A DNA stretch of 64,000 nt from Haematococcus lacustris. Its lineage: Eukaryota; Chlorophyta; Chlorophyceae; Chlamydomonadales; Haematococcaceae. Under the pieces are notes generated by a model. That model worked only from the letters and a program-made list of their open reading frames with translations. It had not been told where the DNA came from and did no database searches. Positions 57,176-60,115 of this stretch are shown one piece after another. The position numbers were made by a program, and so were the translations under genes. The stretch covers positions 3,337,939 through 3,401,938 of the forward strand of contig JASKMD010000029.1 of NCBI GenBank assembly GCA_030144725.1, written 5' to 3'. Position 1 is the stretch's first letter. The number at the start of each line of letters is the position of its first letter.

Positions 57176-60115
57176 CTATCGCCGCCACTTGCGCCGCCAC
57201 TTACGCAGCAGGGCCTTGTCAGGCAGGTACACCCACTCCTGGCCTGGCCGGCCTAGCTTTGGCATGGCTGGGCGGCCATCCCAGTAGCACAGCTCGGTGG
57301 GGCGTGGGCCTGGGCCGACTGCACAGCGGCGGATGTTCAGCGCGGCTGACACGTCCCGGTCGTAGAACCTGCACATGGGTATGGGAAATGCATTGAGTCA
57401 AGTCATGTGCCATGTCATGTGTCACCTCATGTGGGATATGTTGCAGCCATGTACATGTGCATTGTCTGGTCAGTGCTTACCTGATGTTGTAGCTTGTTGA
57501 GCTCATCAAGCCCCTGACTTGGGAACGCTTCGCCTCGCTGTACACTGGCCGCAGCCACCTGCATGGACACATGGGGCAATGCACATTTGTAAGATTTTTC
57601 CTTACCTTCCCAATCTTGACCCTACCAAGCCGCCTTCACTCCACCACCTCCCAGCACTACCCTGGCCCTCCCCCACTGACCCTCTCACCTGAAGGACTCA
57701 GGCGGCTGCCCAGGCAAGGCCTCAATGGGGTGGCTGTAGGCTGAGCTGACCCGGCTTGTGCGGAACTCATCCACCAGCACCACACGCCCTGCCCCGAATT
57801 GCTGCACTGCCTCTTTCCTCATCTGGCTGACTGGGACACCCCTGCAGCCAATGCTGCCGCTGCCGCTGAAGCTAGCTGCCCCATAGGCCAGGGCCAGGAT
57901 GCGGTCCGGCCACCGCTTCTGTGCCTGCTTCTTGACCTGCATCCACACATGGTACAGCACACAGTGGCACACATGTGTAAGGTCGGGTATATCAGCAGCA
58001 ACAGAGGCAGCAACAGGAGCAACAGCAGCTGGCCAGGTGAGCTGACTGTGGTTGGCTGCTGCCTAGCTCGTGGCTAGCTGCTACTGGGCCTTACCTTGGC
58101 CCAGAACGAAGCCACCACGCGCATCTTGCCACAGTACAGCCTGAACTTGGCGTTGGCCCAGCGCTTCTTCGAGACCTCGGCCCACATGGCGTCATACGTC
58201 TCCAGGACGGTGTCGGCGAACCGCCGGTACGAGGCCAGTGAGCTGGGCTTGCTGCTGACCCGCGACAGGGCTGTGAGCTGCGGCTTCACCTTGGTCAGCC
58301 ACGTCTTGGTCGCCTGGGCCTGCCGCGTAATGCCGCTGTCCCGGTAGTACTGACCGGCTGTAAGCTTCCAGTGCCGCACGGATACCACTGTGCCGGCAGC
58401 GCTGCGCTCCTCGTGCGCTACAGTGGCCATGTTGGTTTTGCCAGGGTCAACGCCAAGCCACTCCGCGTGAAGATGGGCCAGTGGGTTGACTGCGTCCAAG
58501 CCCCTGCCCATCCGCGGCAGCTCTGCGGGTGGAGCTGCAGGCTTGGGCCGCAGGAACATCACGCTGATGGCGACTCCATCGGTGTGCACGATTTGCGCAA
58601 AGTTGTGCTTGGGGCTAGCGAGCTTCTGGCGGCGAGGGTCAGGCAGCAATGCATCCCATCGGTTGGCCACCTGTAGCCACCATATGCACATACCAAGGCA
58701 CTTCATTAGCTTGTGTGGGCTCACAGGGCAGGCACAAGGCAGCTGACTGCAGGCTCACAAGGCATGTGACAGCACACATGGCAGCTGACGGAGCACCAGA
58801 GGACTGGCTAGCACCTGACTGCAAGGAGCACTCACGTGGCTGTCTTTGGGCCCTGCAATGAAGTTGCCCGGCCTCGCTGGGTCAGGTAGGGCACCGTTCC
58901 TGAACTTCTTCGAGGAGGTGACCCCCTCCTCCGTCAGCACCCCCAGCATGCCGGCGTCATGCATCATGCCGTAGAGGCCCCTGGTGTCGATGAAGACATG
59001 CCGAGCCTGACACTTGCTGGTGGGGGTGAGGGCATAGGGTGTGGGGGGGCGGGGGGGCCTTGGCAGCAGCCCTGGGTTGGTGAGCTCAGCCTGCTGCCAG
59101 GGCACCATGTCCAGCTGCCAGGCTGCCATGGCTGCCTCCATCTCTCTGGTAGTGTGCACCGCATGGCGCAGCAGCCGGCCCCGGTTGACTGGATCCTCCA
59201 CCCAGTCGTCATCCACCCTCTCCCCCTCCTCAAGCCCCAGCAGGCCCCGTTGCAAAGCCACCTCAGCCTGCATGGCTGGAGTGGGCACCACCCCACCCTG
59301 ATCCAGCAGCCAGCTGACATCCAGGCCGCACACCATGCGGCGCACATAGGTGCACGCCCGCTTTGACCAGGCTGGCAGGTGCCCACCACCCAGAATCCAA
59401 ATCTACGCCGATGTTCCTCAGTGCCCAGCAGGACCTTTGCCCCAGCCAGGGACACAGACTTCTTGAGCCTGCCAGCGAAGAGCAGCGTTAGCATGTTGCT
59501 GAAAGCTGTCTCCAGCTGCTTGCCGACGTGGTCCACCATGTTGGTGTCAGACAGGTGGCGGGGGATTGCTGCGAGGCGGGCGCGAAGGTCAGGGTGCGCT
59601 GCCAGCACGGCAGCCACTGCCGCGTTTGGCTGAGTGTTCGCGCCATTTCCGGGCAGGCCCCGGACCAGCTGCAGGAACAGGTTCCGGCAGCTCAGGTCCG
59701 GGATGGCTGCCTGGGAGACAGGGATGTCTGTGTACACGGGCTGGTCGTGCAGGCCCAGCGGGTCGGCTACGCGAATGGTAAACAAGCCGCGCACGAGTAA
59801 GCCCAACAGCAGGCTGGCGAGCACCCCACGCTCGCTGATGGCCTTCACTCGTGGCCGCACAGCGTCGGCCAGGAAGGCATCCCAAAGCTCTTGCGGCAAG
59901 TGGTCGATGAGGTGGGCTATCTTACACTTCCTGCCGTGGTATGTGTTATCCCTATCGCGGGCAGCGCGGGCCTCTCCGGAAACCTTTCTATTTTGCTGCG
60001 CCTCGGTGAGATCCGGCTGTAGTGCCTCGTCGCGGTCCTCAATGTCACTGTCCGGGTCCTCCGGCACTGGCCTAGGCACGGTTCGTCTTTTTTTCTTAGC
60101 CATAGAAAACAACAT
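57176..60115 (-). CDS. Fanzor (eukaryotic TnpB-like RNA-guided nuclease), family B, nearly intact
   Basis: Eukaryotic relative of TnpB/Cas12 nucleases. Exons: 60115 to 58836 (with one frame change near 59390), 58670-58095, 57936-57689, 57558-57481, 57368-57176; every junction after the first exon keeps phase. Begins MLFSMAKKKRRTVPRP (KKKRR, a nuclear-signal-like cluster), then a helical N-domain (KIAHLIDHLPQELWDAFLAD), HVFIDTRGLYGMM, and FAQIVHTDGVAISVMF, a Fanzor hallmark. RuvC-I is EWLGVDPGKTNMATVAHE (catalytic Asp), RuvC-II RVVLVDEFRTSRVSSA (Glu), RuvC-III FYDRDVSAALNIRR (Asp). It ends LLRKWRRKWRR. About 790 residues. The usual zinc-ribbon Cys pairs after RuvC-II are replaced (SRVSSAYS, LMSSTSYN). 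The frame change by one base (RRRFGFWVVG against HLPAWSKRACTYVRRM) could be a real lesion or an assembly error; apart from that the gene could be active. Confidence 0.85.

Follow-up and report, generated by a model that had tools for sequence, protein, structure and literature searches.

Results

A Fanzor gene inside a transposable element

The 64,000-nucleotide stretch of Haematococcus lacustris contig JASKMD010000029.1 analysed here (the window) carries, on the minus strand, a Fanzor gene lying within a transposable element of 3358 bp (56924..60281), whose boundaries were drawn from what is common to its copies and from the flanking duplication. Read in the direction of the gene, the element begins at 60281 and closes at 56924 with the exact 3' end ...GGGATTAAAAC. 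It is flanked by an exact 17 nt repeat, CGAGGAGATGTTGGCAA, at 60282..60298 (5' side) and 56907..56923 (3' side), identified as the target-site duplication (TSD) by the test described below; the predicted guide would also begin with the 3' repeat.

The gene consists of five exons separated by four phase-keeping GT..AG introns (165, 158, 130 and 112 nt), in agreement with a first-pass annotation of this DNA, and extends from an ATG at 60103 to a stop codon at 57178-57176. Exon 1 (58836..60103) encodes a protein beginning MAKKKRR and thus contains the basic N-terminal cluster that had been noted. Exon 2 (58095..58670) carries the HTDG hallmark, found at 58586, and the first RuvC aspartate (DPG, D codon 58448-58446), exon 3 (57689..57936) the rearranged RuvC glutamate (DEF, E codon 57768-57766), and exon 5 (57176..57368), which follows the short exon 4 (57481..57558), the third RuvC aspartate (RD, D codon 57355-57353), so that all three RuvC motifs stand in the order predicted.

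The frame of exon 1 is broken. What had been taken for a single-base frame change is a deletion of 7 nt adjoining 59392 (59391..59392, minus strand), inside a G-rich run: the other full copies aligned, 19 in all, are each longer by 7 or 10 nt at this point, and further private changes of the window copy lie nearby. As 7 equals 1 modulo 3, the deletion resembles a one-base change when the window copy is read alone. A 35-nt GT..AG 'intron' (59406-59372) whose removal would restore the frame was rejected, as the other copies read straight through it and 11 of the 19 have the frame open to the end (789-790 codons). The description 'nearly intact' therefore holds for the family and fails for the window copy. 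The gene is real, yet it belongs to a broken member of a high-copy H. lacustris transposable element family, and is not the special single system that had been supposed.

Copy number and insertion anatomy

The genome searched comprised 308 Mb in 597 contigs. The DNA search, which scored 40 of its 4639 candidates and thus sets lower bounds on copy number, gave at least 53 matches, including at least 25 other near-complete copies at 93-98% identity; with 25 such copies in the same genome, the gene is more than a chance reading. The exact 14-mer GGGATTAAAACTTG occurs 292 times in the genome and its reversed control not once. Over all 190 pairs of full copies the median difference was 2.3%, and all four introns were retained in 20 of 20 full copies. 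The family is abundant and its copies are closely alike.

The 3' end is exact across copies, while the 5' ends vary. Of the 40 copies fetched, 38 had the canonical 3' end, followed in 36 of these by TTG. A TSD of 11-18 nt was present in 18 of the 38, against none of 38 in a control using flank 60 nt further on; five further copies had repeats of 9-10 nt, which did no better than the control. The targets of these 18 copies, three of which (L001-L003) share one site, read R-TTG in 11, C-TG in six and A-TG in one, and none followed TTTT. All 20 copies fetched by their 3' ends, which had been chosen for not being among the full copies, were 5' truncated, internally deleted or interrupted.

Some copies show peculiarities of their own. 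An internally deleted copy, L027, bears its target duplication a third time, together with an inverted piece at the junction, resembling a fold-back during insertion. L034, L038 and L039 are interrupted by inserts of 1136, 2991 and 448 nt, respectively, whose ends resemble terminal inverted repeats and whose joins overlap by 3, 8 and 12 nt.

Fanzor1 identity and the RuvC residues

The assignment to Fanzor was upheld by the predicted fold and by the layout of DPG, rearranged glutamate and aspartate. When two structure models, both of low predicted local confidence (pLDDT), were compared with known structures, Fanzor1 chains came far ahead of all others and were the only structures clearly matched; both models showed a RuvC plus REC fold as in SpuFz1 (domain names follow those given in the sections used of PMC11423790). 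Intact copies would thus encode a predicted RNA-guided DNA-cutting protein, the activity proposed in the first-pass annotation.

Among 46 chosen aligned rows, DPG at RuvC-I was conserved at D in 46, at P in 45 and at G in 44, and its aspartate, D500, in 20 of 20 copies. E674 was present in all 46 rows, six residues upstream of the first zinc-finger position (E-FRTSRV-S spacing), where the passages of PMC10711439 defining the alternative glutamate of Fanzor1 are our reference. The third aspartate, D731, was found in 46 of 46 rows and in 20 of 20 copies. The relatives listed are annotated H. lacustris proteins; D-E-D was retained in 79 of the 85 that aligned at all three positions. A second Fanzor clade, about 26-36% identical, to which a diverged remnant in the window had led, contained both the E and the RD motifs in 101 of 120 proteins. 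Two of its members, P0125 (27.0) and P0201 (27.6), pass the Pfam TNB cut-off of 26.3 and so link the lineage with TnpB at the sequence level; three others tested fell below it, and a sister of the window clade scored 16.7.

The remnant itself (942-2190, plus strand) is strongly diverged, with 33% identity over its first part and an in-frame stop; it retains the motifs DPG, LVDEHRTTRVSSAV and RWLDRDC, lacks the zinc finger and directly follows a short-period tandem repeat at about 300-910. Elsewhere, last exons of sister-clade Fanzors stand in series in the manner of tandem arrays, at C136:5639346-5646131, where four are exactly 2197 bp apart, and at C176:6022858-6039947, where five are 3.8-5.3 kb apart.

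Absence of the zinc finger

In TnpB and Fanzor, a zinc finger is commonly regarded as an invariable component. Bao and Jurka (2013; PMC3627910), in the portion that concerns it, describe the C4 finger as strictly conserved, and the corresponding text of PMC10711439 assigns it to 'many' members. By the layout outlined in the latter, the four cysteines would be expected at positions 681, 684, 719 and 722. These were Ser (AGC), Tyr (TAC), Ser (AGC) and Ser (AGC) in 20 of 20 copies, each codon a single base away from the cysteine codon TGC. In the window copy, the first two lie in exon 3 (57747-57745 and 57738-57736) and the last two in exon 4 (57503-57501 and 57494-57492).

None of the 96 relatives (among the 120 listed) that aligned at both E674 and D731 had all four cysteines. 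In the 120, cysteine stood at the third finger position in 71 and at the other three in none, and the pattern ExxxxxxCxxC..CxxC..D matched none of 240 fetched relatives, drawn from two sets and including some partial proteins. The finger was absent from the second clade as well, and its loss may thus predate the divergence of the two clades or extend over the entire local lineage. Position 681 was Ser in 45 of 46 chosen rows with one gap, and in these alignments the serine is itself conserved. As the C4 finger is missing between E and D, we file the protein as a variant beside canonical Fanzor1 and not as a canonical member. What is new, judged from sequence, is that the nuclease residues are kept while the zinc finger is absent.

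A putative guide RNA in the 3' UTR

The 3' untranslated region (UTR; 56924..57175, minus strand) is predicted from its fold and from covariation to be the scaffold of an omega RNA. It contains a hairpin at 57135-57121, a covarying stem-loop at 57118-57053 enclosing an inner hairpin (57111-57078), and a terminal hairpin, CTCATGC/GCATGAG. In nine related rows, namely the 3' UTR of the window copy and eight diverged ones, three structures were scored, the CCCC hairpin, the GTGTGTG/CACACAC stem and the inner hairpin of 9 bp; the inner hairpin was mostly missing in one row and the outer stem much broken in another. Over 21 pairs, 93.3% of cells could pair, and four pairs and ten cells changed on both sides. 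Covariation reached 0.192 as compared with 0.099 in shuffles (0 of 500 reached the observed value) and less than 0.09 in every slid version, whereas 37 of 500 shuffles had at least as many pairs changed on both sides. Folding of the window strand by itself gave a z of -1.88. Fanzor1 guide RNAs of three-stem shape extending past the TSD are described in the relevant passages of PMC10711439. A stem with compensatory changes makes it likely that this 3' UTR acts as a guide RNA, and the nine-row covariation is to be taken as support and not as proof.

Selection and same-site copies

The ratio of non-synonymous (dN) to synonymous (dS) divergence had a median of 0.27 over 55 pairs of 11 intact copies (mean dN 1.2%, dS 4.5%). 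Introns, however, differed by 1.7% between copies L001-L020, less than synonymous sites, and intron 1 by only 0.8%; set against intron divergence, the ratio becomes about 0.7 instead of 0.27. Purifying selection is likely on these figures.

Comparison of 3' flanks revealed four sets of copies sharing a site (L001/L002/L003, L018/L036, L026/L031/L034 and L030/L040). In all six of the comparisons tested, out of eight possible, the element differed less than its flanks, comparisons within one set not being independent. The values were 0.95-1.4% versus 6.0-7.0% for L001-L003, 2.5% versus 7.1% for L018/L036, 1.5% versus 2.7% for L030/L040 and, for the 3' flank only, 1.0% versus 6.2% for L026/L031. 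Between L001, L002 and L003, element positions 1351-2850 differed by 0-0.9%, introns included, and the flanks adjoining the element were not homogenised. The simplest reading would therefore be that gene conversion acted within the element once it had inserted; for the same three copies, homing into an empty site is a further possibility. Alternatively, the low divergence of the element relative to its flanks could reflect a faster change of the flanks. The L018/L036 and L030/L040 pairs also differ in internal deletions.

For the same-site copies L001/L002 and L030/L040, the positions on C166 sum to approximately the length of that contig, as if two homologous chromosomes had been joined head to head. 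The partners L003, L018 and L026 lie on C176, and such a join does not explain them all.

Search for a mobilising enzyme

Helitron and reverse-transcriptase searches of the genome yielded no mobilising enzyme for the element. There were 18 matches to Helitron_like_N, seven of them strong, and 4540 first-look reverse-transcriptase candidates, of which 150 were scored. Proximity was compared for 87 of 100 listed 3' ends (of the 292) on 14 contigs, leaving aside C90, C143 and contigs that had rows of only one of the two kinds. No 3' end compared had any of 55 compared reverse-transcriptase sites within 15 kb, the nearest being at 37 kb, and three compared Helitron genes of the seven strong ones were at least 177 kb from any listed 3' end.

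Discussion

The account that we favour, with moderate confidence, is that of a zinc-free Fanzor element whose putative omega RNA, read into the flank, guides cutting, whose spread follows from repair and whose first insertions are made by another enzyme. The 3' UTR would serve as the scaffold and the downstream flank would supply the guide; the complex would then find and cut this sequence wherever it occurs at an empty or homologous site, and the element would be retained or spread when a filled site served as the template for repair. Joining to new sites would fall to the other enzyme, which presumably fixes the 3' end at TG and fills in the 5' end imperfectly. The broader proposal, that a whole Fanzor lineage lost its finger while its D-E-D nuclease went on working, and that it rose to be a dominant repeat of one algal genome as a zinc-free, RNA-guided homing element whose filled loci convert empty or diverged ones by means of a guide read from the flank, is for the present rather improbable.

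The strongest competitor, a tenable reading though one less probable than ours, is that the element moves as a non-autonomous Helitron2, as proposed for the Fanzor1 elements CRe-1, CRe-2 and CRe-3 of Chlamydomonas reinhardtii (Bao and Jurka, 2013; PMC3627910, in the part describing them), with Fanzor as a passenger. The same exact 3' end, 5' truncation, internal deletions and variable TSDs are described there, and Helitron Rep genes do exist in this genome; however, the 18 TSD-bearing targets begin with TTG or TG and none follows TTTT, and no listed exact 3' 14-mer lay within 170 kb of the three strong Helitron genes compared, of seven. Target-primed synthesis by an enzyme of the long interspersed element (LINE) type seems more doubtful: the exact 3' end, with TTG adjoining it at 36 of 38 junctions, the TSDs of 11-18 nt, the 5' truncation of some copies and the abundance of reverse-transcriptase candidates would suit it, but all four introns remain in every full copy, and none of the compared reverse-transcriptase sites was close to a 3' end.

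Nuclease-dead relatives of TnpB act as RNA-guided DNA binders or regulators. That the zinc-free protein likewise no longer cuts is unlikely in our estimation: all four zinc ligands are missing in every full copy, none of the relatives legible at both ends of this region carries the complete set, and the finger of SpuFz1 sits in the NUC domain according to the account excerpted from PMC10432273, yet loss of the D-E-D triad would be expected in a dead relative, and the triad persisted in 79 of the 85 relatives aligned in full and in all 46 chosen rows. Least probable of all is an assembly error at the 7-nt gap that would leave the window copy intact, for although the gap sits in a G-rich run and L002, which shares its target sequence with the window copy, has an intact frame, seven bases are involved and further private changes lie close by.

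Surveys demanding CxxC pairs, such as those using the regular expression quoted in the text seen of PMC10711439, would miss this lineage. A large lineage whose copies are closely alike and have D-E-D and no finger is a natural experiment on the role of the finger. With many near-identical copies and readable flanks, the benefit of Fanzor to its element could be tested at homologous loci.

As to known systems, CrHNuc of Chlamydomonas is reportedly a green-algal Fanzor from the work of Jiang et al. in 2023. SpuFz1, the Fanzor1 of Spizellomyces punctatus (PDB 8gkh, 9cez), has the same predicted fold over about 400-450 residues, with its E541 on or beside E674 in the structural alignment at 10-12% identity, and its gene too lies inside a mobile element. 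As characterised in the excerpts of PMC10432273 and PMC3627910, however, SpuFz1 is encoded by a single open reading frame, contains a CCCC zinc finger and comes with terminal inverted repeats, whereas the Haematococcus gene is split by four introns, its protein lacks the finger, and neither end of its element showed a terminal inverted repeat. In the green alga Auxenochlorella the most abundant repeat encodes a Fanzor, by the description in the portion used of a preprint (PMC12633428). Closest in anatomy, from what the pertinent sections of PMC3627910 relate, are CRe-1, CRe-2 and CRe-3, Fanzor-only chlorophyte elements with several exons (five in CRe-1) that resemble the Haematococcus element in their exact 3' end, their 5' truncation and internal deletions, and their variable TSDs. 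They differ in that their ends match Helitron, a partner not found for the Haematococcus element among the three Helitron genes compared, in that their proteins are reported under a motif including the C4 finger that the Haematococcus proteins lack, and in that they insert after TTTT or a T-rich tetranucleotide, whereas the Haematococcus target starts with TTG or TG.
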